Made by a program: the position numbers and the translations under genes | Shown here: positions 87-35,700 of the stretch, in pieces | Position numbering within the stretch: position 1 is the stretch's first letter | Layout of the letters: each line of letters opens with the position of its first letter | Notes under the pieces: generated by a model | Told to the model about the DNA's origin: nothing | What the model saw: only the letters and a program-made list of their open reading frames with translations | Databases searched by the model: none | NCBI GenBank assembly: GCA_903813345.2 | Contig: CAIIXF020000002.1 | Coordinates: 5,062,001 to 5,126,000 of the forward strand | Direction: 5' to 3' | Source of the DNA: Owenia fusiformis | Lineage: Eukaryota; Annelida; Polychaeta; Sabellida; Oweniidae | Length of the DNA stretch: 64,000 nt

Positions 87-2704
87 CTGTGTCTCGTTAA
101 TGACAAGGTTGGACTCCTTACAGACTTCCCTAATAGCTGCTGCAAGATCTTCATATTCAATGTCTTTGAACTCCACCCCTGGGAAGACATCCTTTAAGAG
201 AGCGTCAAATCGTATACCATCCGAGAAGGTCAGTTTGGACAAGGTGTTGATCCTCAGTGCCTGTACAACAAGCTTGGCTTCTGTTGCTACATCCACTTTG
301 ACTGAAATAATGGATACATCAAGTCATCAACCTAAGATTAAATTGGTGTAGAGTACAATACAAACATGTTAAAAAACTCAAAATAAAGTTAAAAAGTATT
401 TTGTTTTCAGAAACATAATATTCCAAAATATCAAAATCCTCACAATCGTTCCGCCGCCAAGTCATTGAAATACTGTATTATCGCATAATTTCTGCAAAGG
501 AGACATTCATTTTACTAATATATAGCTAATGATGCTTCTACAAGATCTGCCTGGAAAGCAAGGTGTCGTGGGTTCAATCCCCAGGAGGGTGGACTGACCT
601 TTTCACATCAGCCCTTAGCACAGTATTTCATTCTATATTTTCATAAAATTAGTCAATAAGTCAATACAATACCTCCTTCTGCAAGGTTTTTCTTTGCAGT
701 TTGTAGTAGATTACCACATCCTCTGAGGATTGTCTTCAGTGCTCTCAGGCCCCAGTCATAATGCTGCTGTGGGGTCAAAAGCTCCCTGGAATGATGTTAT
801 GTTAAATAATATTTCTCTGTCAAGATCTTGTATTACACTATATCAGTAAATAGATCCCTGGAGCAGGGGCAGATCTGGAAATTGGCGAGAGGGAGGAGTC
901 CCAAAAAGTAAAGTAAATGTTGAATAATCTTTTTAGGAAAAAATTGGTAACCTTTATGAAATTTGGTTCAGAGTTCTCCGAGAGTTCAGAGTTCTCCGAG
1001 ATATTCTATAAATATACTGTATCAGACATTTTGTATACTTTTATCACAGGATTGGACACACGAGAAAATGACTTACTTAGACAAATTGAAGATGGCGACC
1101 AATTTCCTGCCGAGACTCTTAGCTTGTTTGAAACCCTCTGAGAAGAGAATCACCTCTCCAATCAATTCATTATCGGGTTTAGACATAGCAACAGGGCGGA
1201 ACAATTGTTTCAGATTGTCAGGCAGTTTCTGTCGTCCTCCATATCCTTTTCCTGCGGGGTTCATGGTGATGAAAATTCCAGAGTTTGGGTCGATGTTCAC
1301 CTTTAAAATAGAGAATTTTGTAATGTTTTGTGCATGTTATTTTGTAACAACTGGTTCTCATTTGTTATTACGTTATATCATGGTTAATGGCTCTAAATAG
1401 CTCAATGTGAAAGAATATAAACACTAAAAATTAATTGTTATGAAATTCAAATAACTAAATATACACAAGTTTTATCAACGAATTTCAACCTATTTACATC
1501 TCTGGCCAAATAATGATTGGGTATTTGGTGCACACAAACACTTTTACATAGACATAATAATTCCATATTATCCTGGCCCTTGGTCAATATCAATCTTGCC
1601 CTTGGCATATGTACGCTGTACTTACTGTTCGTCCCAGTAGCTCTGCAGTTGGTGCCCTTTGTTTAATAGCATCCTGGATGACCTGAATCTGCATAGAGAC
1701 AGCAGAAAGCACAGCTTCCTCAAGACGATTGAACTCATCAAAACAGCCCCAGGCGCCACACTTGACCAGACCAATGAATATCCTCCCCATAGACTTAACA
1801 TCTATGCCCTGAAATAAATATATACGAGGGCTGGTCAAAAACTTTTATGAGTTATCAAATGGTGACAATTAAAACAGATTTCTGAAATGAAAATAATGTG
1901 GCTTCTTGATTCAAATTTATTTTTTGTTACATAATGAACATTTCAACAAATAAATCAATGGGCCATGAAAAAAAAAGATGGGAATATTAAGGGGGTTCCT
2001 CTCTCTCTAACCCCAACCCTTTTCCCATTTCCCATTTCCAGTTCTTACCTCGTCACAATTAAACACAAGGACTTGTCTTCCAAAGAGTCCTCCTAGTGCC
2101 TTCACAGACTCAGTCTTCCCTGTACCGGCTGGACCATATGGGTTGCCACCAAATCCCATGTGCATACCTGCAGAACAAATCATATTTGCATGTGTGCCAA
2201 AACGCTAATGTATCAGGAGGATAATATAAAATATAAATGTTTTAAAAATACCTTGTAGCTGTCATGAGAAAATAGTTTATTAAAAGTGACAAGATAATAG
2301 CTTCAAATGTGTCCTGGGAATTGAAAACACAGAATAATATCCTGCCCAATGGTCTGATGTGAAGAAGTCAGTCAGTTTTGAAATAATATCAGAAGAAGTG
2401 TATAGCTTTGAAACTTGCAGGACTTATCTAAATCTTCATGTTACATCACTGTTACTCTCACTGTTCTTGTTCCAAGTAAATGTATGGTACACTATTTTAT
2501 GTTGAAATTTTTTTTTTAAAAAACAGATATTAAAAGAATGAATAAAAATATTGACATTACAAACCTTGCGTCAAAGTGAGGTAGCATTTATCCGTCAATG
2601 GGGTGTGTACCAATTTCCCAGCATTCCCTTGGTACTCATAAGTGTAGTCAAATTCAGAGTCCACCATTCTCATTATGCAGGTCTTCTTTGAGCCCAGATA
2701 AAAC
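87..2704 (-). CDS. DYNC2H1: dync2h1 exons 29-34: AAA1 and start of the AAA1-AAA2 connection
   Basis: Exons: 2565-2704, 2049-2167, 1626-1808, 1077-1300, 673-785 and 87-301. Exon 30 carries Walker [10 protein letters not shown] and exon 31 Walker [11 protein letters not shown]. Exon 32 has the AAA1 sensor-I region [13 protein letters not shown], followed by [14 protein letters not shown]. Exon 34 ends in phase 0 at position 87 with a GTATGT donor. Key ATPase residues are intact, so this is a functional-looking motor. Bases 1-86 are the next intron. Confidence 0.95.
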
Positions 2705-5700
2705 CTGAAATACATTTACAGCCCCGATCACAACATGGTGGTCACACTTTCAGTTTAATATGCAAGCAAAATAGAGGAAAAATAGCGAGATGTCTTGGTT
2801 TAAGGGATTATGCCCCCCTTGACACCTCCAGTGAAGAAGATAGGGCAGGTTTCAGGGACTTGACTATGACATGATTTTTTTGATTTTTTGAGATTTTCAA
2901 GAAAGAGAATTTGAGAGACATAAGCAGTAGTTTCTGCCAAAAAGCAGTTATTTCTGTAAAGATTCTTCAAATAAGCTAAGAAATAATTGCATACTGTTGA
3001 ATTCATGGCTATTCATTGTGATGAAAAAATTCAATTATTCATCTGAAAATGCACAACTTGTGATATTTTGAGCATTTGATTCTCACCTGAGTTGTTTCTG
3101 CCAAGACCAATCCTCGATGTTCCTACACTTGGTCTCTTGTAACTGTGAGATGACATCTATAGCATGAATGGTATCTAGGATCAATGACTTCAACTTTAGG
3201 TCCAGTACATGGGCATCTGCATCTCCTGTAAATGACATGAGAAATAAAGAAGATAAATAGAGGGCAGCACTTTTAATGGGATTCTGGGTATTTAATCCAT
3301 GTATTTTTCATTGTAATACAACTCCATGCATTGTAATAACGTTAACTTATGAATTGAGAAATGAAGGTAAATAGAGGGATTATTAGTACAACCAGAACAA
3401 CGGCAACGCCAAAGCGTAGCGAATCCCATCGAACAGAAATGGCTGGCATTTTTACAAACGAAGCGCAAATACCATAAAACAACACACCAGAAAGGCCACC
3501 ATTTTCAAAATGGTTGCTCACTAGCCAAGTTGTCATCAGAAGAAATAATATGCTTTTAAGTAGCCACCTCTAAAAATTTTTGAAAAATCGCACACATAAA
3601 AATGGTGGCCATTTTTCAAAATGGCCGACTACTCCCCAAAGTTTTATTAGACAATGTGCCATGCTTAAAGTATTCACATACCAAATATGAACAAAATCGC
3701 TCCACTTCTTTTCGAGTTATAGTAAAATACGTTAAAATGGCGGCCATTTTTCAAAATTGTTTTCAAAATGGCCGCCTTCTACCAAAAGTGTCATAGGACA
3801 GTGTGCCATGCTTAAAGTATTCACATACCAAATATGAACAAAATCGCTCCACTACTTTTCGAGTTATAGTAAAATACATTAAAATGGTGGCCATTTTTCA
3901 AAATTGTTTTCAAAATGGCCGCCTTCTACCAAAAGTGTCATAGGACAGTGTGCCATGCTTATAGTATTCACATACCAAATATGAACAAAATCGCTCCACT
4001 TCTTTTCGAGTTATAGTAAAATACGTTAAAATGGCGGCCATTTTTCAAAATGGCTGCCTTCTACCAAAAGTGTCTTTAGACAGTGTGCAATGCTTATAGT
4101 ATTCACACACCAAATATGAACAAAATCGCTCCACTATTTTTTGAGTTACAGCAAAAATCGTAAAATGACGAGTAAAGGCCGCCATTTTTCAAGATGGCTG
4201 CCATGTGCTTTTTAATATCTACATTTGTAGCATTATTAATGTCCTTTATACTTTTTTTACATTTAAAACATATTGCTATTACAGTTTTACATATTGCACC
4301 TAAATTACTGTAAAATCGTCACTAAAATGGCCGCCATTTTGAAATGAGCGGCCATTTTGAAAATCGGCTTTCGAGCAGAACTTCTACCCCCATAGGGTAT
4401 ATGTGTACGAAATATGAACAAAATCGGGCCAACGGTATTTGAGTTATTGCCCGGACGGACAGACGGACGGACGGACGGACGGAGGCGTTCCCTATATCCC
4501 TCCGAACTTCGTTCGATGGGATAATAATTAGTACTGGGAGGTTTTGGATACAGGTTTTATCCCAAGGGAAATATGTGTATATCCCGAGGGACCACAGGGA
4601 CCGAGGGATATACACATATTTCCCGAGGGATAAACCCTGTATCCAAAACCGACCGTACATAACAGATGTATTTCATACCTACTGATGTTCTAGGTACGTC
4701 ATATACCTTTACTTATAAAGTTCCAAAATTCAAAAATATACTTAAGATACGCATTTTCTTGGTGTTATAAAGTGGTTTTTTAAGTTTCTGAGATTTTCAA
4801 ACTCATATAACTCATATTTTGAAAAATAAAAATTGAAAAAAAATTTTGAAAAAATGTGAAAAAAAAATTTGAAAAAGAATGTGAAAAAAAATTTTGGAAA
4901 AAATGGGAAAAAATTTTTTTGAAAGAAAATTTGAAAAGAATTTAAATAAAAAAAGGTTTGAAAAAAAAATTTTGAAAAAAAAATTCAGGAGCGGGACCAG
5001 GATGGATACAGCGTGTATCCATCCTGCCCCGGGCCTTGGCTAGATACAGTATATATTCCCGCTCGTTATGTACCTAGAACCTCAGTAGGTATGAAATACA
5101 GTGAATTATAACATACCTATGATGATGTATAGTGCAAAGTGTACACAAGACAGCGGGCCAATATAAGTTTTGAAAAGCCCGCGCCCGCTAACTTTCTGAT
5201 TGGTCAAGGCGCTGACGTCATAACCAATCAATCGAAGATAAAACTGGGCGAGCAATTTTTCTAAACTCATTTCAATCATTTTCAAATCATTTGTTTGTCA
5301 ATTCTATAAGAAAACGGTACTCTCTGACCAGTCTACATCATCATAGGTATGTTATAAATTGTTTATGTCACTATCGTGGCACATATGCCCTCGGTTCTCA
5401 GAGATCAATGTCCCTCCCAAGGTCGGGCCATATACCACTGAGGTAGTGACATAACCTCTAAATATTGGACCCATAGCCGAAGGCATAACATAACTACAAC
5501 TCAAATTGCATTTCAATTACTTAAGCTTCTAGTTAAGTGCAGATCATATGTATTTCTTAATAATGAGGATTTATGGATGACTGACATAAACCCCAACCCC
5601 CTCTAATGTAGACACGCCCCATACCTGCTCCATTGATATCCACATTAGTATAGGACTCTAGCTGTTGTCCCATCTCGGAGTTGAACCCAAGGAGATTATT

Positions 5701-8700
5701 CGATCGTATCGCATCCTCGCAGCGCTCGGTGAATTGAATCTGCTCACAAAGGCATAGGATCTGGGAGGGGTACTTGTTGGGGTCCATCCCTCCCTGACCC
5801 CCAGACTTAGCGTCTCTCAGGCATTCTACCAGCAGCTGAGTAAGAGTGTCTTTCATTTCTTCAGCCAATCTTGCTAACCATACCTGAATAATCAAAAGCA
5901 TCGGTTTTATGTTTGTTTTATATTTGCTAACGTTATTTTTTATTTTCTATAGTATGATAATGGGACATCATTTGTCCTCTGGCCTTTATAAATATGAATA
6001 TGTTTTTTGAAAATGAAATTCATGCATGAAATCTCTTTTTTTATTCTATTGGAGAGGATAAAACTAATTTTTACTATTCTACTATGTTGCCCTTTGCGCT
6101 TTCTAATATCTCATTAATATGTAATAAAAAACCTTTGAGGCCTGAAATAGGCCTGAGATTGAAACAGACATAACATTGAAAGAAACATTCTCAAAATTCA
6201 TTTCGTTCATTGCAAACCTTCAAAGGCACAAGAGGCATGGATTGCACTGAATGGAGGCTAGGAAATTGTGAAAAGAAGTGATGGGATTGAATTACCTCAA
6301 CTTCTGGAGTGATCTGTACTTGCTTCTTGAGAGGAACAACTTCCCCATCCAGGGACTTCATTGCAATTATATGTTTGCAGCCATCATCAAAATCCACACT
6401 GTGAATGCCTGCAACATAATATATTACATATAGGTGAATTATAATACATGTACAACTTCCCCATCCAGGGACTTCATTGCAACCATTGCAGCCATCCTCA
6501 AACTCAAGTTAAGTGTTTGAATTAGGAGTAACATGGGGATAAATGGGAGAATAAAAAGTGGGACATATACTGACTTTCCTTGTACAGGAATCAGCCTAGC
6601 TAAGAGGCAAAATACAATGCGAGTGTAAATTGTGTGTAATTGAATTGAATGTACATGTTATTGAATATTTACCTGCAAACAGCTTCTTAAGATGTGTTTG
6701 AATAACTGCTGGGTTCTGAGATTGTCCAAGAATCTCAAGCAAATCATCGTCACCAATGAAGTAAAATCTGGGGAATGATGACCTTTTTTCCTGCAAAGAC
6801 ATTTACATAAAATATATTGGAAATCATTTTCATGGTTTTATGAGCAAATTATGGGTAAATATACTTGTATTTTACACTGGAGGGTGAAAATTAAGGTTTT
6901 GATATAAAACACATTGAATATTTAGTCGCAAAACATTTCAAATCCCCTCACGGGCCTATATGAGCACATACCTCTAAGAATTCATTCAGGGATTTCTGGC
7001 AACGTTGGAGCTGGTCTAGCATAGTCACTAGCAGGTTTCTTAGGCCTGTCTTTGCTACGAATGACAAAACACGATTGTCTCTGTTCACATCATTCATTAT
7101 GGCCCTAAAAGTACAACACAAACAATGCAATACATGTGCAATGCCAATTTTGGTGACCCTAGAAATGGCCAAACCTGAGTCTCAAACCAAGCGATTGGTG
7201 AAATTTAAAAAAGACCAAAAAGAATTACAAAATGATATCATGAAAGATGAAACATATAACAGGTAAGACCAGAATCAGTCATCAGGAAAAACAACCCCTA
7301 ATTTTCAAAAATATGATCTAAAGAAACAATGTCTAACATCCCCTCCCCAACCACTCAGAAATTCATACATGCATATCAAGTTGAAACAAATCTTACCTAA
7401 AATCATCATCAACTCGCTTGAACCTTCCTTGTTCCTTTGGAAGGGCCCCTCGGCCAAATATGGGCTCCAAGTAGACCCATTTGCGTTGAATTTGATTGAG
7501 ATTGTGCAAGAACTCATCCAGATCTGCCAATCGCTGTTCCCATATACTGGCCTTGTCCTCAAAGCTTTTGTAATATGGAGAATCTTTCAAGGATTGAAGC
7601 AGACACTGGTTATCTCCAACCTTAATTATAAGTAAGAATTGTATTTAATTTACAGCACCTGAATGATGAGTGGTGTACTTTAATTGGGCACGGTCTAAAG
7701 TATGAAAGGCTGAGTGCACTTAGTTTAAAAAAAATTCATTAAAAGAAGCAAGACTATGGGTTCAAGTTCAATAAAATGGTTCCTAATGCTTATTGAAAAT
7801 TGAGAAAAACAAAAGGATCAAAACATGTTTTTGTTCATTTAATTAGCTCAAATATAGATACACTTATAAATGGTTCAAAGTTACATGCAGCTCTTGCTGT
7901 TTAGAGAATCATATCTGCATGTTCAGTAGTTCAATGCAAGGTTTATTTTTAATTCAAAATAAAACCACAAATCCCTACTTGGTTGACGAGATCTTTCCAA
8001 TCTTTGATGAGCCTTAGGCTTGACTTCTTGCTGTCCTCGTATTCTGTGAGGGCAAACACAGCAGCAGCTCCCCACAGTTCCAGCTCTCTTATAGCTTCAC
8101 GTATTGTCACCTCACCCTGGGCACGCTGGTTCAGTTCCTAAGAAATATAAATGGTTAACTCATAACAGTCTACATTTGCGTATACTCATAAAACACAGCA
8201 GCAGCTCCCCACAGTTCCAGCTCTCTTATAGCTTCACGTATTGTCACCTCACCCTGGGCACGCTGGTTCAGTTCCTAAGAAATATAAATGGTTAACTCAT
8301 AACAGTCTACATTTGCGTATACTCATAAAACACAGCAGCAGCTCCCCACAGTTCCAGCTCTCTTATAGCTTCACGTATTGTCACCTCACCCTGGGCACGC
8401 TGGTTCAGTTCCTAAGAAATATAAATGGTTAACTCATAACAGTCTACATTTGCGTATACTCATAAAACACAGCTGCAGCTCCCCACAGTTCCAGCTCTCT
8501 TATAGCTTCACGTATTGTCACTTCTCCCTGGGCACGCTGGTTCAGTTCCTAAGAAATATAAATGGTTAACTCATAACAGTCTACATTTGCGTATACTCAT
8601 AAAACACAGCAGCAGCTCCCCACAGTTCCAGCTCTCTTATAGCTTCACGTATTGTCACCTCACCCTGGGCACGCTGGTTCAGTTCCTGTTAAATATAAAT

Positions 8701-11700: not shown

Positions 11701-14700
11701 AAATACATCATCTCTAAATTTCTGTTGGATGCTTGCTGTTTGCTCGTGGTGGCTAAAGTCTTCGTTGGCTTTCATGTCTCCTATACTTGAGACTTCTTCA
11801 AACTCTTTGATGATCTGGGATATTGCAGGACCAGCTATCATCCATCGTTTCAGTGCAGTAGGATTCTCTGTTATTCCTATAGCCCCACCAGAACCCTTAA
11901 TCAGAGCATTATTTGCTCATGGGCCTGGTCTATAGGGATGGTTGAGAATGACCTAGGTGTCTTCTGAACTGTAAAGAGACCTTCATTGAAACGCTGATAC
12001 AGGTCAGGGTGAGTTGTCTCCAATTGGACCATGTCCCTTAGGTGTATTGGGAGCCATCTGGAATAGTGTGTATGATCTAATGCAAAAAACCAGGGCATCA
12101 TCTTGGTCAAAACAGAAATGTAGAGTTTAAAGTCTGCCTCTCTCAGGGATCTAACAAAGATCATAAGCAGCATTTCAAGGCGCTGTGTTATAGCCCAGTA
12201 TTTGAAATGGGGGAATTGTCTTCCCCTTCCCTTTTCCATTCTTCAAAGGATAGGGGGCACAGTACTGCAAATCCTGTAAAATTGGCCAACATTAATGTCA
12301 AACTCAAAAGCCATTAATCACAACATCTGGCTCTGCTGCTGCTAGCAGAAGCCAGCTCTGGCATTAAACCTGGCTCTAAGAATATTCTACTCCCCAACTT
12401 TCTCTCTATTTCTCTGAACATTCTAGTCTTATCTGTCAACAAATTAATTAACAGGCCATTACTTTGATATGTTCCACACTTCCTAGAATTACAAAACTCT
12501 AAGTAGGTGCTTTAGTTTTAAAGATATAGGTTGTTCAAATTAGGAGGTTTACTTTATATCAGCTGATCACAAGCATGATATTAAAAGTGAAATTTCACAT
12601 AAAGATCAAAATTTTATTTCAATAAAAGTTACATCATTTTAAAGTGCAAAGAACATGGATTAAAACTTTAACAGGAATATTTCTGACTCAGATCTTAATC
12701 AACAGTGAAAGAGCGAGAATCAAAGGAATGTACTTACAGTATACAATAAGCTGGATCTAAACTGTTATAATTAATAGCTATGTATGCTTAAAGTACTTTA
12801 CAGGACAATGTAATATTTCTTCAAAGCTTTCAAGATTGCATCAATTAACTATTGATTACAAATTATCACAATGGAAAACCATAAAATGTATTTAGATAAT
12901 ACATGTCGAATCTGTGGAGAAAGGGCACAAAAAGGATCGGATATACGCTATAAGAAAAAGCCATTCTATTGTGAACGATTCCAAATAATGATGTTAGAAT
13001 ATTATGAAATTGATATAAGTAAAGATGTTGGTGACATACACCCCAAAAAAATATGTCAAACATGTTATAAGAGAATGTGCAATGCCCATAGATCAAAAAA
13101 CAAAAAGTCATTTAAACTCTTTAACTTCAAAGAACATACTCGAAGAAGTTGTAGCCTTTGTATTAAGTATGAGGATAGGAAAATTGCAGGAAGACCAAAA
13201 AAGAGTAAAGGTCTTGATACTCAAACAGATGAAATTCAGCATAATGATGGCAGTTCAATAACATCAATGGATACCACACCTGAGATTGTACTCCATACAA
13301 GTAAACATAATGATGACAGTTCAATAACATCAATGGATACCACACCTGAGATTGTACTCCATACAAGTAAACATAATGATGACAGCTCAATAACATCAAT
13401 TGATACCACACCTGAGATTGTAATCCATACAAGTAAACATAATGATGACAGTTCAATAACATCAAGGGTTACCACACCTGAGACTGTACTACGTATGAGT
13501 AAACATAATGATGACAGTTCAATAACATCAATGGATACCACACCTGAAATTGTACTCCATACAAGTAAACATAATGATGACAGTTCAATAACATCAATGG
13601 ATACCACACCTGAGATTGTACCCCATACAAGTAAACATAATGATGACAGTTCAATAACATCAATGGATACCACACCTGAGATTGTACCCCATACAAGTAA
13701 ACATAATGATGACAGTTCAATAACATCAATGGATACCACACCTGAGATTGTACTCCATACAAGTACACCTAAGGAACAAAATCAAGTTCAAATGAAGGAC
13801 TGTGCTACTTCTCCAATTACACTAACTACACCTCACAAGACATCTGCTGCCGATATCATTTCTAGAAAAGTTACATCTCCAACATCGCGGATCGATGAAC
13901 AGGTGGGATTAAATGTTATCAGGAGGAAGCTTAATATGTCGTCGTCTGATACAATTTCATTTCAAAACACAAAAGGTCGACCCGTGGTTCTAAAAAAACT
14001 TGTAATGCCCACAAAAGAAAGTTGTGTAGCAGGACCTTCATCTTTAAAGAAAAGAAATAAAGCAATTAATGATGTATCTTCTAAGATGTCAGGTACCTCA
14101 TCATTCCTCAAACAAAGAAAAAGCTCTACATCAGAGAAAATAGTGATTGACAGCGAACCCTCATTAGCCATGAAAACACTTTTAAATATGTCTTGGACAA
14201 AATATGATGAAGGTAGAGACATGTTGAAAGATCGAGGGGTGCACCTTAAGTCTCAATCCACATTGAGGAAAGAACGAAAAAAACTCTTAACTCCCAATAT
14301 AAAAAATACCACAATAAATGCGAGTGTCAAAGCTGAGGGATCAGCATCAAGCATAAAGGGTTACAAAAATCAGGAGGAAGTTGTATCGCATATTGACGAT
14401 CTACCATCATTTGTATCTAATCTATTAGATGAGTATGACGCAACTGACAAATTGACAAGGTCTTTTCAAGATGATGAGCAATGGCTAAAAATTGGTAAGT
14501 ACAATAGTTGAATAATTGAGTTTTTTTGAAAATATTAATCAACTGAATAATTGATTATTAATTATTGTTACAGTGATACAAAATTAGTTCGAATTTCCAC
14601 CATAATAGATTATTTGATAAATGGTTTTAAATCCTTCCTCTTCAGGCGGGGATCATGGACGGGGAACATTTAAACTGTGCTTGCAGTCATGCAATGTTGA

Positions 14701-17700
14701 AAAACCGAACGCCAAACAAAACACAATAATATTTGCCATTACAGAAGCTAAGGACAGTATTCACTCAAACATTGTAAAATTGAATGACATAATTAGTGAA
14801 GACATCTTCAACCTTCAGCTTTTGACTTGGAGAGACAGGCCCGTTAGAGTATATGTTTATGGAGATTATGCTTTTTTGGCAACGATATATGGTATTTCTG
14901 GAGCACAAGGGAAATACCCGTGTTTGTGGTGCACGATCCGAAAAGATGATCTTGATATTCCCAGTCACCTGAGATCATCACGTGAAAGGACATTAAAATC
15001 GCTATGTGATGATCATACAAAGTTCAAAAACGAAGGTAAAGGAGTCCTGTCAAATGCGTCAAGTTACAACAATGTGATTCATAAACCTTTGTGGCCTATA
15101 GAAATATCTCATGTCTGTCCTCCCTACCTCCATATATTACTCGGCATTGTAAAGGTACATCACGATATGCTTGAACGTGAATTGCATAAGATAGATCTAC
15201 GTATTGCTAAACTGATGGCCAGAAAGAGTAGCCCATTAGGAGAGACACTTTATGATCAATATGTTAAATCCCTCAGAAATAGAATGATCATACTGAGCAA
15301 AACAGGACATCTTGAAAATGAGATTCAATTCATGGAAACTGAAAATGAAAAATTGAAGGCAGGTGCAACATTAGCAAGTTTCCACAAGAAACTGAGGAAA
15401 CTGGAGACCAAACTCGATGTAAAATCTGGACCCATGGTAGAGCACCTAAATCAAGTTATTCTCAAGAAACAAAACATAATTCAGACAGATTACCACAGCA
15501 GGCAATTCACTGGTAATCATTGCCACAGATACATCAAAAAGAAAGTGAGGAAGGAAATTAGACACGGCCTGAATCAAAAAGTTAAAGAGTTAACAAAAAA
15601 TCCCAAAATTCATGAAACCGTGAACACTATTGGACATACATTTGGAACCCTCAATCGGCTGTACTTCAACATTCACAAAGCTGTTAGCCATATGCTACCT
15701 ATACCTGTAACAGAAATACCAGGAATAGAGACAAATATTGAGTTGTACATGCAATTCTTCCGAGATAACTGCAATAGAAAAACTACTCCAAAAATGCACT
15801 TTCTGGAAGACCATGTAGTCCCTTGGATTCAGAAGTGGGGCTATGGACTTGGTCTTCATGGAGAAAGTGGGTGCGAGAGTATCCATCATGAAATCAACAA
15901 GATGACAAATTTCAAGTCTGTCATTGACAAAAAAGTGAAATACATGGGGATTATGAAAGAGCATCACCTGTCTGTTAAGCCAAACTTGCAAAAATATTGC
16001 AAAGCAAAAACAAAAAAATCAAAATTATCAAAACTACTCAACAAGTAGTTATTAAAAACGCAATAGTGACAGAGCATGGAAAAGAAATATTTAGAGATAC
16101 AATGCTACAAATATACACTATAGTGACAAAATAATTCAAGAACAATAATCATGCATATACCATATATCTGATAGTATGTCTCTGAGTGTATGGACTCTTG
16201 ATTGAATGCATAGCTAAACAGACTGTAAGTACAGCTTTTGACTTTTTAGTGACTTTTTACTTGTTTTTGGAAATTAATTAAAATAGTTATAGGGGTTAGT
16301 AAGACATGAGATGAATTGTAAATGGTAGATTTCTCTATTCCGAATAATTCTGTATTTTTTCATAATATATAAATTCTGATCAAGATATGATTTTTTACTT
16401 TAAAAAACATAAGCATACTTCTGAATTGGCCTATATTCACAAACACTGTGCATTTGACCATCAATGGAATGTTCCTATTTATTCACATATTACAAAAGGG
16501 TTCTCTGTGAATTTTATACCATTGTGAAGAGAATTAATTTTATGTTAAATATATATAACTTTTAAAATGATTTGTTGTTCAAGCACATCAAAATAAGGTA
16601 AAGTTGTGAGGCGGTTTAATTCCAAAAGTCAGCTCCTAGCATAACTGATTTTAATGCTATGGTATCAAGTTAAGCCAGTGTTAGCAGTTAAATCTAAGCG
16701 CGCTATCCTGATATGTGGTAATTAATCATTGTAGCAAGCCTGAGATCATGACATTAATGTTAACATAGGCTACAGTACTGTGGGGGGCTACATCACTGAG
16801 TTCGGCAACAGCTAGGTATATGTTGAAAGCTTTCTTCATTAGGATGTGGAGTGCTGCCAACGTAATTTGACGTGCTCTTCGAGTCTTGGTTATATGGCTT
16901 CCTTTTAGGAAGGACTCTGCAGTACCAACTGATGCTGTATTTGACTGAGCAATTACATTTACCCAACCGCTGTCTGTCAGCCAATCACCAATCACCTTCT
17001 GGAATGCCATTTCTATATGGAGACCTCCAAACATGATCAAGTATTTATCTTCCCCATGTGTATCAGGGTATATCTATTGAATGGTTTTCAGGGAAGCAAA
17101 CAATGGTTGGTCAGCCGCAAGAACTGGTATTTGACCAGGATTTACTATATGTATGTCATGTTTGACTATGTACATACCATGTTTTAACATGGCTAGAGAT
17201 TTTTTCCAAAAGAAAATATATTTAAAATCCCTTCAGTGCAGAGTCTATCTTGCATTTATTCTCAATCATATGTGTGACTCTCATATTGATATGTATAATT
17301 ATGAGTAATTCAATAAAAGCTTATAAAATAGTACAAGGCTTAATACTGAGCCTTGCTGAACACCCGTTTTAATGGTTAAATATATTGTAAAGTAGTTCCT
17401 ATATCACAAGCAACTGTCTGGAATTCACTTAAACAAATACAATTGGTTTAGAGCTAAAATACAACACTAATTCAAATTTCTTAAAAATCTATATGTATTG
17501 GCGGCCATCTTGGATTTTTCTAGAACGAGGCTCCGGATCTCTTGCTGCCTCGAGCCAATTTTTTTCAATTGCCTTCAATTACACTTGTACCAATTTTGGT
17601 GCTTCTATCATAAAAAGAATTATCGTAAGGTGATTAGGCTTAGCTATTTGAAATGCATGTTATTTAAAAACAGCAGACAGCAGGTCCTGTCAAGTGAAAT

Positions 17701-20700
17701 AGTCTTAAACATTGGAAAATATTTATATATAATCCAAAATATCTTTACAATTTGAGGAATTATGGTAAATGAAAACACAGAAAGAAATCCTGTGCTAATC
17801 GCTGATGTGAAGTCAGTCCACCCCAGTGGGGATCAGACCCGTGGAGACCCTTGTGGGTTTAATCATATTAACTCACCTTTAATGCATCTGCATTTTTTAT
17901 GATCTCATCCGAGCATCCCAAAATGTCACCAAAAGTCAGTTTCTCAAGTGTAGTGCCTCGAGGCAGACGGACCAATCGGAACAGCTCTAGCCAGTGATCC
18001 TGGGAGAGAGGCTCTCCACGTACCCATTTCAACACTGGCAAGACATGCTACAAAAGAAATCGAAACAATTCAAGAAAATGGTTTCCATAGAACGACAATA
18101 TCTAATTTTCTTGCGTGATTCTATTAATCAATATGAAACTGTTTTTTTTCCATTTAATTCTCTCATAAAGGTTCTATGAAAATGCAATAGCTAATTTTCT
18201 TCAATGATTTCTATTCAATATAGTGTTACACACTTTTGTTTATTCCTTTTTAAAACCTCTCTTTCCAACTCCATTTTATAACAAGACCCCTTGTATCAAC
18301 AAAACCTCCCTTTAAAACTCCAATTTAAAACAAGACCCCTTCCCCTTGTATCAACAAAACTGTTTCTCATTATTTACTGTATTCATATGAAAATAGTCCA
18401 ATCTCTTCATATAGGGTGACATGGTGAGCAGCATTTCTGGAATGTTTTGAGAAAAGAACATGCAGTGAGATATAACTGACTTACCTTGTAAGTATCAATG
18501 TCTTTCTGCAGCCTCACTGTCATTGTAGTTGTGTCTCCAGTCTTCAACTTCTCGTACCACTGACCAAGAAACTCTTCAAACATGTAGGACTTACCCCTGT
18601 AAATATGAGAGCCATTGTAAAATACATGCATTATCATAAACTATATTGGAGATCATTTTGAGAACATGGAAAGTAATGGAAAACTATGTACTCAGAAAAG
18701 AGATATCTTAAGACATTTTGATTTTTGAATTCTTACAAATACAGGGGCAAGAAATTAAAAAAGAGCCAAATTGAAGATAATGATGCACTTCTATCAGGCA
18801 GCATACATTTGAACAGTTTTAGCGTAAAATTAAGTCTAAATATATTTTCTGTAAATGTTTGTCAAGACAAGGCAACTTAGTGACTGCCTAATAACTGCTA
18901 AATCTGTATATAGCACGTATATAGCAGGTTCATAAATTCACATTTTAAATGGAAAAGTAAAGTCTTAAATATTTTCACCTGAATGAGATCCAGTCCTCTT
19001 TGGCCAGCTCCTGTAGACCATTGTTAAACTCTTCGAACAGTCCCCACATAGACTCATACTTCGTAAGGTCTTCACGCACCTCATCTGCTACGGGGAACTC
19101 TGGGACGTCAAGCTCAAAATGTGCGCAATCAGATCTACAATGAAATCAAATGGTTGCTTTACAACAATTTGGTTGTGTAATTTGTGTTCAACCCCTGATA
19201 GGTAGGCAAAATTGGAAGGGAATAGAAAATGCAGCCTGATTGGTAAAAATGATAAACTTTGCGAACCCATCTTTATGACAATAGACAAAATGAGTGAAAT
19301 CAACAGACAGGAATATTGTAAATTATAATTCTATTGTAGAAACTTCAGGAAGTTTGGTTTTAACAATTGGGGAAAATGGCCTGTCATCTATTGCTAGCAA
19401 AATCCCTGGATTATCAAATACCCATGTAATTTATTATGATTTTAACAAATATTAACATGATCCAAAATCATCAGCATAATCCAAAACAGCCTTACACAAG
19501 TTTCTCACGATTAGCGTCAATTTCTTCAAACTCTTGTTTCCGTTCACGAATAGATGTCACTGCCTTCATTGCAGTTTCTCTATCGCCATCTAGTGAATCA
19601 TTTCCTGGTTTCAACTGGTGCCATCTGGCCGCAAACTTCTCAATTTCTTGCTCAAAGGCTTTCACTCGTGACTGGACATTACTTTTCATAACATCAACCT
19701 ACAAAGGAAATACATTGGATTACATTAAAATTGGTTTTATATGTTATATATCAATTACTAAACTTATAACAAATCTTCAGGAATCAAGTATTAAAAACAC
19801 AAAAGAGTGATTTGCAAACATTAAGAATTATTATTGGACTTAGCTTGTGTGTTTTCAGATAAACATGCATCATACTATGAATCTATGATTTCAGATATAT
19901 TTAGGCAAAATTAATCTGATATTCGAAATGTAAAGTGTCTCCGTTTATTTGACTTTTAAGACCTTGCATCATACAGAAAGAAATTTGGGTATTTTTGATA
20001 TAAAAATTGTCAACATAGGTTATCAATGGATGGGCCAAACTATAATAATGTTGGGGATTCTAATTGAAAATACCTGTTCTTTGACCATCAGTTGATGGCT
20101 CTCCATCATAAGTTCAAACTTATCCCAGCGTCCCCGGAGTGTTGTCAAAGTATCAACACCACCTCCTGCCACGGATCTTAGAAGCTTGTTCTTCGTCTCG
20201 GCTTTTTCAAAAAGAGGCTGTACCTGAAAGAATCAAGGCACAATCGGTTGTAATTTTTGGCTGTGGGATGGGAATTTCCTTTTCACATTTTTCAGATTTT
20301 CGTTTCAAACTTCTAAATACTTCTTTAATATTTGGCTCAAACTTCAAATTTTACATAAAAACACTTGTGTATTGACCCTACCTCTGATTTGGTTTTGCCA
20401 AACTCTTGGTGTTTAGCATTAGCCTCCCCAATCTCCTCAACAGTCTGAGGCCTTGCACTAAGAGTCTCCATGGCACCATTTAGGAAGGTGTCTATTGCCC
20501 CAAGGTCAGTTGTGATGGACTTGCGTAAAGCATTCAGGAGTGAGTCAAACAGTCTCTGGATATGGTCATCTACAACTGCTTTAACAGGGTTGCAACTCAC
20601 TGTGATACAGTCAACCTTGATTTGGCTGGAAATGAGATAAGATTGCATAAATATACAATTAGGCATTGAGGAGTGAGTCAAACAGTCTCTGGATGTGGTC

Positions 20701-23700
20701 ATCTACAGTCAACCTTGATTTGGCTGGAAATGAGATAACATTAGAGATGAGATGCAAAATGCAATATAATCTAAAGATTTACCTTCCAGTTATCTAAAAA
20801 TCTGTTTAAAACTATACCATTGGATTTCTATGGGAATTCCGAAGAGAATATTCTAAGGATTAATGTAGGTGTGAGCATTACATAATTTGAGAAATTATTA
20901 GCATAAATGAAATCTATTTAAAACAGAATTCATCTTATTGAAAAGATGATTCCAAGCCCTCTGAAGTTTGAAAAATGAGAAATATTTTTGGATTATATGG
21001 TGTAATCTTATAGTCAATAAAAGTTTTAAAAGTGTATTCATGTTTTTTTAGATGAAAACCATAAGCGAAATGCATGAAAAAACTGCCCCGATTCATTCTT
21101 CATACAACTAGCGGTCCTCTGAACAAAATCCATGGACTGGTATTTCAGTTATTATCTGGACACACTAATGAAAAGACGGATGGCTTCACTGTATCACAAA
21201 AATGTTCATTCATGGGAATTCTAATAATTGCTACTGAATAATATTCTGGTTTGAAAAAGTCACTATACCCCAGTGGGACTAATTGTACTGCTGAATGGAA
21301 AGATTAAGCGAATACTAATTGTATAATGATGTTGATTTTGCATCGACACAATATCCTTTCTCTTTCAATAATTAATCACTTAAAAAGAGTCCAATAATAT
21401 TTGTTCAACATTCATTATTTACAAAGCGGCTATTCAGGAAAAGCATTAAAAAGATCACATAAATTCACATAATATAGTGGATTAGTGGAAGCAATAGTCT
21501 GAAACTGAATTTTCAAATTTTATTGTAAATACAGTGTGCTGATATGTCTAATCAACTTTTGTTGTGATTGTTCGTTAGTTGAAGTTTGTTAGCAAAAACA
21601 GTACAAATATAAGAGAAACACAGCATTCACTCTCACAATGTGGATGGTTGTCTTAGTAACCATTGGCAGATACATTCACAAAGTTTTAGGATAAACTCCG
21701 AGATGGAAAATGTAACATTTAACCTCAGCATGGACAAAATTAACAATTTTGGAAATGATAGAGATATAAGTTTCACAAATATTTCAGTCACACTCTTTAA
21801 CAGCAATTTTCTGAAGATGACAAATGCTGTTCTTTATTCCGTTTTTCAACTGTTGTTGCCTAATATTGTGGCAGGACTTGGACTAATAGGGAACCTACTG
21901 TCATTCTTGGTGCTTTCAAAGGAGAAAGTTTCAAACACAAGAATATTTCTTCTAAAGACGCTAACTATAACAGACTCAACTTTTCTCCTACTGACCATTC
22001 CTTTTTCTGTGAATGGCAGGCACCAAATTGGGGATATAACCTTTAACGTGGACATATCTGATTTTATTTATTTATTACTACCGAGTTTATCTGCAGCATC
22101 TACTCTCACAACTTGGATGGTTGTCTTAGTAACCATTGACAGATACATGCACATAACAAAGCCAATCCGTGTAAAGACACTGTTAACTGTGAAACGAATG
22201 AAATGGACTGTAGGGTGCCTCGTAGTAGGAGCATGCCTCTACAATGTACCTAGATATTTTGAATGGCATCATGGTGATGGTACTTGCTTATTAAGTTGTA
22301 ATCCAAGCTATAACCTTATATATAATGTGATTTTAAATGCAACCTTAAGGTACTTTGGACCAGTTTTCATAGTTTCTATTCTTAATGTGAGATTAGTTAA
22401 GGCCATCCAAAACTCCCAATCAAAACTTAAGCAGATGACATGTAAAGAAATTGAGGAAAGAAATCATGGCATTACAATGATTGCAATTGTGTCAGTATTT
22501 ATGATATGTTCAATATCAAGTTTGGTGACTGAAGTCACAAACATGCTATCGATGTATAATATTATTTCACTGCCAATTTTCAAACAAATTATGATGGACA
22601 CTGTCTCCAATTTTTTTCTTGTATGCAATTCATCGTTTAATTTTGTAATATACTTCATGATAGGAAAATCGTTTAGGAAGAAGTTAAAACAATTATTTAA
22701 GGGAAAGAATAACAATACACCAATTCACTAATGAGTTAGCAATTCATGATTACACTAATTTAAATAATAGTAATTCACAAATGGAAAAACAATTCACAGA
22801 TGGGATACCAATTCACAAATGGAGTAACAATTCATGATTGGAATAACAATTCACAGATGGAATACCAATTCACAAATGGAATAACAATTTACAAATGGAA
22901 TAACAATGCACAGTTGAATAACAATTCACAAATGGAATAACAATTCACAAATGGAATAACAATTCACAGATGGAATACCAATTCACAAATGGAATAACAA
23001 TTCACAAATGGAATACCAATTCACAGATGGAATACCAATTCACAAATGGAATAACAATTCACGATTGGAATAACAATTCACAGATGAAATACCAATTCAC
23101 AAATGGAATAACAATTCACGATTGGAATGACAATTCACAGATGGAATACCAATTCACAAATGGAAATAACAATTCACGATTGGAATAACAATTCACAAAT
23201 GGAAATAACAATTAGCAAATGGAATAACAATTCACAAATGGAATAACAATTCACAGACGGAATACCAATTCACAAATGGAATAACAATTCACGATTGGAA
23301 TAACAATTCACAGATGGAATACCAATTCACAAATGGAATAACAATTCATGATTGGAATAATAATTCACAGATGAAATACCAATTCACAAATGGAATAACA
23401 ATTCACGATTGGAATAACAATTCACAAATGGAAATAACAATTAACAAATGGAATAACAATTCACAAATGGAATAAAAATGCACAATTGGAATAACAATTT
23501 ACAAATGGAATAACAATGCACAATTGGAAAAACAATTCATAAATGGAATAACAATTCACGATTGGAATAACAATTCACAAATGGAATAACAATTCACGAT
23601 TGGAATAACAATTTTCAAATGGAATAACAATGCACAATTGAAATTACAATTTACAAATGGAATAACAATTCACAAATGGAATAAAAATGCACAATTGGAA

Positions 23701-32700: not shown

Positions 32701-35700
32701 TGGTGTGTGTGTGTTGTAAAATATGTTTGGAACAAAAAATAAAATAAAAATGATTTAACCGAGATGAATCCCATACCTTAGCCTCTAGCTGCCTAACCCA
32801 TACAATGTTGTTGACAACCTCTGGGAGGTTCTTTCCCTTAGGGGGTTTCTTCCCACCAGATGTACGCTGAACAAAGTCATCACGTAACTGCTTGATGTAC
32901 ACCTGAAGCTGACCTAAGAGGGTCTCACTGGAAATATAGGATTATACATGTAATTTTAATAAACCTTTATTTGATTACACTCACTAAAATGACTTGAAAT
33001 TTAAATGCAATAAGATACAGTTCTGTTGAATTTCATTGGCTTAATTTTTTAACTTGAGGTGGGCATCACGAGCACATGATTTTTGCAACTACATTTGTGC
33101 ATGATTTCAGTATGAATTTGGACTTTACAGTTTTTATTCCTTACCGTTCAGAGACCATATCTTTACTAATACTCGGTCTCTTAATCAGTTCTTTATACTT
33201 CTGAAACTCTCGTAAAAGCTGCTGGGAATTAGCCTCCATTCCTCTAAACTGCGATCTTAACTTTCCTGCGATTTTTTGCTCAGCTGGCGACATGGCACGC
33301 TCGTACTGGGCCACAGCAGCTTTCCATAGGGGTTGAGTGTATGGGTTGTACTGCAGGGGGTTAAGACCAGAGAAGGGGGAGAATGCATCTGCTGTACCCA
33401 GGTTCTGTTGGTCTTGTTGAGAAAGTAGACGAACAAGTTGTTCATGCACTGATCTCAGCGTTAGAATCTGAAACAAATGATAAAATTTCAAAAAGGCATT
33501 AACATGCAAAATGTCACTACCTGCCATTTTATACGGACACTGACTGCCACTGACACTGACACTGAATGCCCAACTCCAACAGCTGAACACAAGTCCAAAG
33601 TTGGAGAATATTTGGCACCTGCACCACTTCTGGTGGTGAAATCAAAACTATTTTAAGTGGTAAATGTTTCATACTGGAAATAAAGTAGGCTGATGCTACA
33701 TTTGAATGAAATAAGTTAATCAACATGGAGCTACCTCTATTATATTATACAGAAATTATAAAAATACATGTAATTCTTTCAAATTTTAAGAGAAAATGAC
33801 TTCATTTTATAAACACAAGGAGTGGCATTTACAGTTCAAAATCCTAAATTGTACAGAAATTATACTTTTCTCTTTAGAGAAATTTAATTTAATCATTTTG
33901 CAAATATGAAAAATGTATTACCTCTTGTAGACGCTGACCAAGATTGCTTAAATTCTCAGGAACAAACTTCTCTCCCTTCCATGGATGTAGACTGTAGCGC
34001 TTCCAGAACTGAACCGTCAATGTCTCACATGCTTGTACCCATCGGTCACAAATTGCAAGTCCTTGGCGTAAAGCTTCCTTTACTTTACTGAAGGTTCCCT
34101 TCCAAAGATCCTGTTCTCCAAGCTTTCTTTGTACATATCTGCCTAGGGAACCACCTTAATGAAAGATTAAAGTATTTGATATTTGAAATCCCTAAATTCA
34201 TCCTAATAACAATTACAGGATGGGCCAAAAATGCAAGAATGCAATTCTTTAGCAATATTTGGATGAGAAAGGTTAATGGACAATGGGGGTGTGAAACAAA
34301 TTCTCAGTTTCACAGTGATTATAGTTATGTTCCATTATATGTTGATATCAGATGGACCTTTTGTAAAGATTATTCATAAGGCCTATAGCCAGCTTTTGAC
34401 GCATGGTGTTTATAATATTGTAACTAGATTTCTGCTAAAAATGGAACATTCAGGATACTCTACGATGCCTGGCAATTATTGATTTGAAAGGGCACTGTAA
34501 GTTAGATGGGACAATTTTGTGAGTTAGAGGGGACAACTTTGATAGGTAGAGGGGACAATATTGGTATCTAAATCAAATTTGTGTATTCAATATGTGTTGA
34601 CATTTAACAGAGCTACATGTATATCCTTATTTCATGATCATTAGTGTACCTATTACGTCCATCAGATGTCGCATACGATCTTCAGGATACAGTGGGGAAT
34701 ATTCAGCCTGCTTCCAGACATCGTCCAAACTGTCCTGTGCCGTATCTACCAGCTCCACCACTTCAGCCAAAGAGAGTTGTTCTAGGCTATTGAACTCCTT
34801 AGCTATGGGCTAGAAAATTGTCCAATCTCTGAACATTAGAGCATGCACTGCTTATCTGCAGTGATGGCTATCATTTGTTTTAAACTACATGTATTCACTC
34901 TGGCCATTTTAGCTGTGATTGGCGCCTGGGCGCTTAAAGTAAGTCAAAACAGTTTAAAAAGTTGTCCTTTAAGCGCCCATATGAGTCCCGTCTGAGAAAA
35001 ATGCTGGAGTTTCACTTTCAGTTTGGAAAAAAATTGGAAAAAACTTTTACTCTAGCCTAAATAATATAAGCCATTGTAAGGGACGAATAATGTAAGAAAA
35101 TAACATGATAGCCAATATCAGGTTTGTTTATCAGGGGTTTCATTAGCAGCAGGCAATTTTCAGTTTGTTTTCACAAAATCGCCTGTTGTTTTTAGGGATT
35201 TTTTCAACTTTTCCATGTCTTTATGATTTCCATTAATTTGGCCTGTTTTTTTCATTTATTTAGCCTGCTGTGAGAAATTCTGGTGAAACCACTGTTTATT
35301 GACTGTTTATGTATTTTAAAATTAATTCGAATGAATCTTACCTGAAACAGTTCCTGAATATACTGGGCTCTTTCTTTATCATCTCTGTTACGTCCTGACA
35401 TTGCCATTTCAGCCCAGTACTGGAATTCCTCAGATGGTGTAAGAATCCCTGTAATGATAAATTATTGCGCATGAATATAAAACCAACATACAAAACCATC
35501 TTGATTCACAAGGTTTCATTTGTGCAAACCTCTTAAGCATCTATGTTCACTCAGCTCCCCTCAGTATGAACATAGTGAAGACTATATGAGTGTGCAAAGA
35601 TGCCTCTATAGACCAAATGGGAAGGAAAGATGTCATTAACAAAAATGTAAAATATTTTGGACAATTGTAAGAAAATCCAATTGAATATGTTATCTATAGT

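Follow-up and report, generated by a model that had tools for sequence, protein, structure and literature searches.

The stretch of DNA analysed here (64,000 nucleotides of the annelid Owenia fusiformis; assembly GCA_903813345.2, contig CAIIXF020000002.1, positions 5,062,001 to 5,126,000 of the forward strand; hereafter the window) contains a DNA transposon of 4525 bp with CAC...GTG ends and a 10-bp terminal inverted repeat, whose features are listed in Table 1. It is very probable that this element is an intact, recently mobile and autonomous cut-and-paste transposon of the Chapaev superfamily, for which we propose two-part ends. An earlier reading of the window (the original prediction), made from its letters without database searches, had described an apparently intact element of the RAG/Transib type that generated a 5-bp duplication.

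Inspection of the genome revealed a second full-length copy with the same boundaries (G000:C10:35780433-35784958), which shares 99.14% identity with the window element over 4527 aligned bp. Both exons of the C10 copy are open, as in the window, and outside the 66-bp tandem array the two sequences differ at 15 of 3992 positions, one of these being a 1-base indel. Judged from this comparison, the window element is recently moved and apparently intact. The transposase gene consists of two exons with 1008 codons before the stop; in L004, a relative without the intron (open frame of 904 aa), the sequence KIGGDHGQG runs uninterrupted across the intron position, the motif KIGGDHG being common to both. 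Several claims of the original prediction are therefore retained: the boundaries and inverted ends are common to the C10 copy, whose near-identity also agrees with a young, recently moved element, and the splice of the uninterrupted two-exon gene is supported by L004. The tandem array is found in the C10 copy as well (L013, 1416-1948), where it contains about eight units and is of equal length, with marker units shifted by two. No separate second gene was detected among the open frames of at least 80 aa, since the others either coincide in part with the exons or extend past the right boundary of the element; this check was made without a RAG2 profile search, and spliced small exons would escape the list of frames.

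Shorter relatives of the element were also observed. Loci L022-L024 (C12:10229113-10230206, C11:2375161-2376254 and C6:1725576-1726671 of G000) are non-autonomous relatives of approximately 1.1 kb, with termini as in the window element and 4-bp duplications. Three other G000 loci, C3:1207446 (L016, L048), C32:38261 (L017, L049) and C86:15105 (L018), have a nearly identical left flank and are probably duplicates of one shortened insertion; the first two contain only the 5′ part, which ends abruptly within the tandem array.

Insertion of the element generated a 4-bp duplication. The window reads GGATA-GGGGG-element-GGGGG-CTAC. Five paralogues of the surrounding host repeat lack the element; the sequence is GGATA-GGGGGG-CTAC in four of them and GGATAT-GGGGG-CTAC in the fifth. 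As there are ten Gs in the window and six in four of the empty sites, four base pairs were duplicated. The GGGGG/CCCCC duplication of the original prediction was ruled out by these empty sites; the element had inserted within six consecutive Gs, which made the duplication look like 5 bp. The C10 copy is flanked by GTAC on both sides, and when repeats of 2-6 bp were tested, a 4-bp repeat was found beside 11 of 11 insertions (window, C10, the three non-autonomous copies of approximately 1.1 kb, three copies of family B and three of family D), all placed via copy comparison or the family terminal repeat. A 5-bp reading is likewise possible at the G-run of the window and at no other insertion; L022, in an AT run, also permits 2 and 6. 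One of the family D copies was found by ranking on the 4-bp repeat, yet it carries 14/14 of the family repeat, and without it the count is 10/10. The duplications of L003, L005, L043, L044, L045 and L046 were not counted as independent, because their candidate ends had been ranked by a 4-bp repeat. Mapping of copies, which the original prediction had proposed as a check, thus yielded the identical ends and empty sites, with duplications of 4 bp instead of 5 bp.

The N-terminus of the transposase is, on profile comparison, homologous to the RAG1 N-terminal region. The trimmed domain (residues 3-100) matched the Pfam family RAG1_imp_bd (PF12560) with E=3.2e-6 (27.4 bits; cut-off 23.3), and five of the eight members examined matched this family at E<=1. 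A search of solved structures with the family profile A3 (eight sequences, the outlier L042 among them) retrieved the RAG1 chain 21wb_A (E=1e-8) and residues 102-216 of mouse RAG1 (6oem_A; E=1.6e-5), the entries after these two RAG1 chains being at 0.0021 or weaker. Four places in the genome scored above the PF12560 cut-off. Kapitonov and Koonin described this region, under the name 'Chapa domain', in Chapaev, in Chapaev3 and, in truncated form, in TransibSU (PMC4411706). Since the domain has already been reported, the window copy alone does not tell how RAG1 acquired its N-terminus, which the original prediction had expected of it. A similar N-terminus was observed in L042 (G000:C3:4985700-4989500; frame 251-3355, 1034 aa), apparently an element of another kind that shares this front end; towards its C-terminus, L042 matches DUF6589 (E=1.2e-9).

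A genome search with the transposase gave 96 matching stretches, which were scored. In a nine-member alignment (A2), residues D544, D615, C634, C637, H704, H926, H931 and E948 are invariant (columns D2, D73, C92, C95, L161, H162, H384, H389 and E406, 9/9). We propose D544, D615 and E948 as the putative catalytic triad, with C634/C637, LH704 and H926/H931 as the other motif residues. The spacings D-18-C-2-C and H-4-H are those of mouse RAG1 D708/C727/C730 and H937/H942. The second H and E lie 17 apart in the window element and 20 apart in mouse RAG1, and a GESG motif matches the region of mouse RAG1 E962. All nine transposases matched DUF1280 at E<=1 (best E=2e-9). The DDE-like nature predicted earlier for the C-terminal half is thus supported by motif and by DUF1280 similarity. 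The RAG1 core family PF12940 was not matched at E<=1 in the nine transposases scanned, so the protein search suggested in the original prediction succeeded for the RAG1 N-terminal region and failed for the core. PF12940 also gave no match in the genome as a whole, a result which is uninformative because 14 control genomes were likewise empty. Viral, bacterial and archaeal contigs yielded pattern matches and no confirmed relative.

These features point to the Chapaev superfamily. Its described traits are the C(2)C, LH and H(4)H motifs, 3-4-bp duplications and CAC/GTG ends (PMC4079192), and DUF1280 has been assigned to Chapaev transposases, which form one clade with RAG1 (PMC3985635). The window element has these motifs, DUF1280 similarity, the 'Chapa' zinc domain and a 4-bp duplication. 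Termini of the form 5′-CAC...GTG-3′ are present in the window and C10 copies and in families B and D; beyond the first two, only B and D count for this trait, their ends having been derived from copy comparison, since CAC seeded the wider end search. Compared with Chapaev as described, the element adds the coding array of 22-aa repeats and an asymmetry of 9-12 bp in the second block of its ends. Chapaev3 has similar superfamily motifs and 3-bp TWA duplications (PMC4079192), in contrast to the 4-bp duplications without a TWA consensus found here. The probable assignment to Chapaev rests on the termini, the duplication, the DUF1280 similarity and the catalytic motifs.

Several results weigh against this reading of the protein and its placement: (i) the window's own DUF1280 match (18.8-20.9 bits; E=0.0013 at 18.8 bits) lies below the cut-off of 25, (ii) the profile of the catalytic half gave no match among solved structures and scored poorly when set against the mouse RAG1 core by hhalign (E 0.077, probability 0.7%), (iii) a single-sequence fold prediction for exon 2 had a mean predicted local distance difference test (pLDDT) score of 34.8, with no reliable fold, (iv) seven of eight members resemble zf-AD at their N-terminus (best E 3.3e-6; the window's own 4.9e-4, below cut-off), and the untrimmed exon 1 gave a weak zf-AD match alone at E<=1, and (v) the element was placed by published criteria and not by a tree with reference sequences. 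The weak DUF1280 score and the missing tree would also suit a lineage of its own, as yet undescribed, within the wider CACTA-Mirage-Chapaev-Transib group, as would the fact that C(2)C and H(3-4)H motifs, mostly CA..TG ends and 2-5-bp duplications are common to that whole group (PMC12730594). We consider such a lineage improbable, given the DUF1280 matches of all nine transposases, the 4-bp duplication combined with CAC/GTG ends, and the RAG1-type N-terminal domain, which Chapaev, Chapaev3 and TransibSU are reported to have (PMC4411706).

It is very improbable that the element is a RAG-like or Transib-family transposon of the direct ancestral type of RAG1. Such an origin would be in keeping with the RAG1 N-terminal homology, with the agreement of D-18-C-2-C, H-4-H and GESG with mouse RAG1 (the second H-to-E distance being shorter, 17 vs 20), and with the start CACAGT, which resembles the heptamer CACAGTG of recombination signal sequences (RSSs). 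It is already contradicted by the 4-bp duplication, with which the main argument for RAG/Transib is gone, the 5-bp GC-rich duplication of those elements being absent. The nine transposases lack a PF12940 match, and neither a separate second frame nor, among frames of at least 80 aa and with no RAG2-profile search made, a convergent RAG2-like gene was found. Moreover, the sister families start with CACAT, CACTG, CACAC or CACAGC, so that only CAC is common to all nine families, and Transib reportedly lacks the RAG1 N-terminal region (PMC7204232). We therefore rejected the RAG/Transib membership given in the original prediction on the 4-bp duplication, the missing PF12940 match and the lack of a separate second gene. 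Reclassification as Chapaev with a 4-bp duplication keeps the element from being counted as a RAG/Transib ancestor.

The likenesses to RAG-related systems are nevertheless several. With RAG1/RAG2, ProtoRAG and other RAG-like systems the window element shares the RAG1 N-terminal homology, the spacing of catalytic and zinc residues and the CAC start; with RSS pairs and ProtoRAG it also shares bipartite asymmetric ends. Those systems have 5-bp duplications, a RAG2 partner and nonamer or TR5 elements, whereas the window element has a 4-bp duplication, no second gene that was found, and a different second block. N-RAG-TP of Aplysia, reportedly described by Panchin and Moroz in 2008, is said to have RSS-like ends. 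Like the window element it is a transposon encoding a RAG1-N-like protein, but it consists wholly of RAG1 N-terminal-like sequence (PMC8355894), a comparison made by description only. Transib resembles the element in its CAC ends and in the catalytic motifs of the CACTA-Mirage-Chapaev-Transib group, and some of its members have 12/23-spaced ends (PMC8355894); it differs in its 5-bp duplications and in lacking the RAG1 N-terminal region.

The ends of the element contain, in addition to CAC, a second block of 13 bp that lies at unequal distances from the two termini (Table 1). L023 and L024 carry this word at positions identical to those in the window element, and in L022 the offset is +9. Twelve loci were examined for ends, nine of which were accepted on a terminal repeat and a 4-bp repeat, two of them being copies of one family. 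Together with the window element, nine distinct families were available: A (window), L003, L005, L043, L044, L045, L046, B and D. The subterminal stretches of each were scanned from position 17 for the best ungapped match at offsets from -25 to +25. In 9/9 families the best offset of the second block is +9 to +12, with the longer spacing always on the side upstream of the gene. The asymmetry was first spotted by eye in families A and B, with D also viewed; the six others, tested afterwards, all fall within 9-12. In seven families the shuffle p-value is 0.0005-0.0135 (2000 dinucleotide shuffles per family), a test solely of whether shuffled ends attain the best match, at whatever offset. The summed offset scan comprised eight families, with the uncertain L005 excluded.

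The 5′ end of each family was also set against the 3′ ends of the other families. The offset was +9 to +12 in 39 of these 72 pairs, whereas like ends match near zero (22/36 and 21/36 at -1 to +2). Between-family identity, anchored without gaps on CAC, reaches 0.58, 0.78 and 0.78 at positions 34, 35 and 39 of the 5′ end, and 0.61, 0.78 and 0.78 at positions 24, 25 and 29 of the 3′ end; setting aside terminal bases 1-4 and 11 at both ends, the peaks are shifted by exactly 10. Identity in the 5′ spacer (15-28) is 0.25, which is the random level, and in the 3′ stretch 15-18 it is 0.31; 5′ position 60 also reaches 0.58. The spacing is kept between families and the spacer sequence is not. The second block starts at 26-32 (5′) and 17-23 (3′) in all nine families, these positions being approximate and weak in B and D, and has a TTAGTT-like core in seven of them. 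For comparison, the computed start of the RSS nonamer is 31 in the 23-RSS (7+23) and 20 in the 12-RSS (7+12); the starts observed here approximate this arrangement of a 12/23 signal pair.

Other observations count against the generality or the significance of this asymmetry. The nine families come from one genome and have a common ancestry, and are hence not independent. Families B (p 0.19) and D (p 0.63) are not significant alone, and the best offset of D becomes -3 when the scan starts at position 20. No ends were found for L004, L010 and L047; the ends of L005 rest on one copy with a 10/14 repeat, and its near-identical sister L010 gave none. The second block is unlike the RSS nonamer ACAAAAACC when compared by eye, no motif search having been run. 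A follow-up of 10 more loci (C106 was dropped at a contig end) gave accepted ends in one of the nine scanned and none in the other eight; the accepted ends belong to another family D copy and therefore add no independent family. Candidate ends on C25 (9/14, with a 4-bp repeat and a best offset of -2) were weak and not accepted.

An alternative with an appreciable, if lesser, chance of being correct is that the asymmetry represents inherited drift, i.e. an old insertion of approximately 10 bp beside one end, and plays no part in how the ends are paired. The relatedness of the families within one genome and the range of offsets from 9 to 12 would agree with this. It is opposed by the 5′ spacer, which is random between families (0.25 at 15-28) while the position of the block is kept at both ends, and by the transposases of the eight other families, which are 33-42% identical to that of the window and yet go with the same spacing and polarity. 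From the arrangement of the ends, and by analogy, it is most likely that the transposase reads two-part ends and pairs unlike ends.

The proposed mechanism is as follows. The 1008-aa transposase would comprise (i) the RAG1-type N-terminal zinc-binding domain, probably serving in dimerisation, recruitment or DNA contact, (ii) the low-complexity repeat linker and (iii) a DDE nuclease domain, predicted to carry the zinc-binding pairs seen in RAG1. It may recognise each end as a bipartite signal composed of CAC and the second block; a long-spaced 5′ end would be paired with a short-spaced 3′ end, both would be cut, and the ends would be joined to the target with a 4-bp stagger. Much as the 12/23 rule does in V(D)J recombination, the difference of one helical turn would favour the correct combination of a 5′ with a 3′ end. 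That a 12/23-type rule (long- and short-spaced bipartite ends differing by one turn) in fact operates in Chapaev elements with a RAG1 N-terminal domain is a tentative proposal, which we regard as rather unlikely. If it were true, asymmetric pairing and the RAG1 N-terminus would both go back to the shared ancestry of Chapaev, Transib and RAG, and not to the vertebrate immune system or the acquisition of RAG2.

How the 12/23 rule arose is a matter of debate (PMC8355894, PMC8289069). In the text of PMC8355894, ProtoRAG (27/31) is the only invertebrate RAG-like element with asymmetric ends, to which a figure legend adds an oyster RAG-like element; beyond these, the paper gives 12/23 asymmetry for some Transibs. 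PMC8289069, which also gives the ProtoRAG spacing as 27/31, shows ProtoRAG to be dependent on its asymmetric ends and makes the case that ancient RAG transposons had such ends as well. The RAG1-like N-terminus of Chapaev is already known, and the part not found described is the end asymmetry: we found no account of it for the nine families in the accessible portions of the openly licensed Chapaev literature, an earlier notice, e.g. in Repbase Reports, being possible, and PMC4079192 contains neither 'subterminal' nor 'asymmetr'. With a one-turn asymmetry in nine Chapaev families bearing a RAG1-type N-terminus, and with intact, near-identical copies at hand, the question can be tested by an ordinary excision assay.

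Table 1. Features of the Chapaev-type element and its insertion site (window positions)
Feature	Position	Strand	Basis or remark
Very probably complete, autonomous Chapaev-type DNA transposon, 4525 bp	12258..16782	+	same ends as C10 copy, 99.14% identity
Left flank, 5 G, four of them the 4-bp target-site duplication GGGG	12253..12257	.	6 G in 4/5 empty paralogues
5′ terminal inverted repeat, unit start CACAGTACTG	12258..12267	+	
5′ second block, AACATTAATGTCA, 31-43 from terminus	12288..12300	+	
Exon 1, 541 codons + 1 base	12871..14494	+	splice reading agrees with intronless relative L004
N-terminal zinc-binding domain homologous to RAG1 N-terminal region ('Chapa domain')	12871..13230	+	PF12560; RAG1 chains by profile
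In-frame tandem array between the two domains, 66 bp x 8.1 (22-aa repeats)	13240..13772	+	
Intron, GT..AG	14495..14645	+	missing from L004 open frame
Exon 2, putative DDE-type transposase domain, stop 16046-16048	14646..16048	+	residues invariant in 9-member alignment
3′ second block, same 13 bp inverted, 22-34 from terminus	16749..16761	-	
3′ terminal inverted repeat, unit end CAGTACTGTG on +	16773..16782	-	
Right flank, 5 G, four of them the 4-bp target-site duplication GGGG	16783..16787	.	6 G in 4/5 empty paralogues

The element is located, as the original prediction had stated, inside a dynein gene, which sequence similarity identifies as DYNC2H1. It is flanked by two matches to the cytoplasmic dynein 2 heavy chain on the minus strand, at 20340-20702 (E=8.9e-22) and 5560-5946 (E=3.4e-20). 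Both are exon-sized, and the exons directly adjoining the element are not among them. At 33144-33641 there is a further dynein match of lower score (DHC_N1; 25 bits, cut-off 28.3). Within the gene, the element is nested in another multicopy repeat (25 match rows, counting that of the window itself), pieces of which gave no Pfam match when tested. This interrupted repeat (approximately 11900-12257 and 16783-17183 of the window) contains an open frame on the minus strand, which is uninterrupted at the insertion site in L034. An open frame for a rhodopsin-type G protein-coupled receptor (7tm_1, E=1.2e-18) was also observed on the plus strand at 21613-22731, between the dynein matches at 20340-20702 and 33144-33641.

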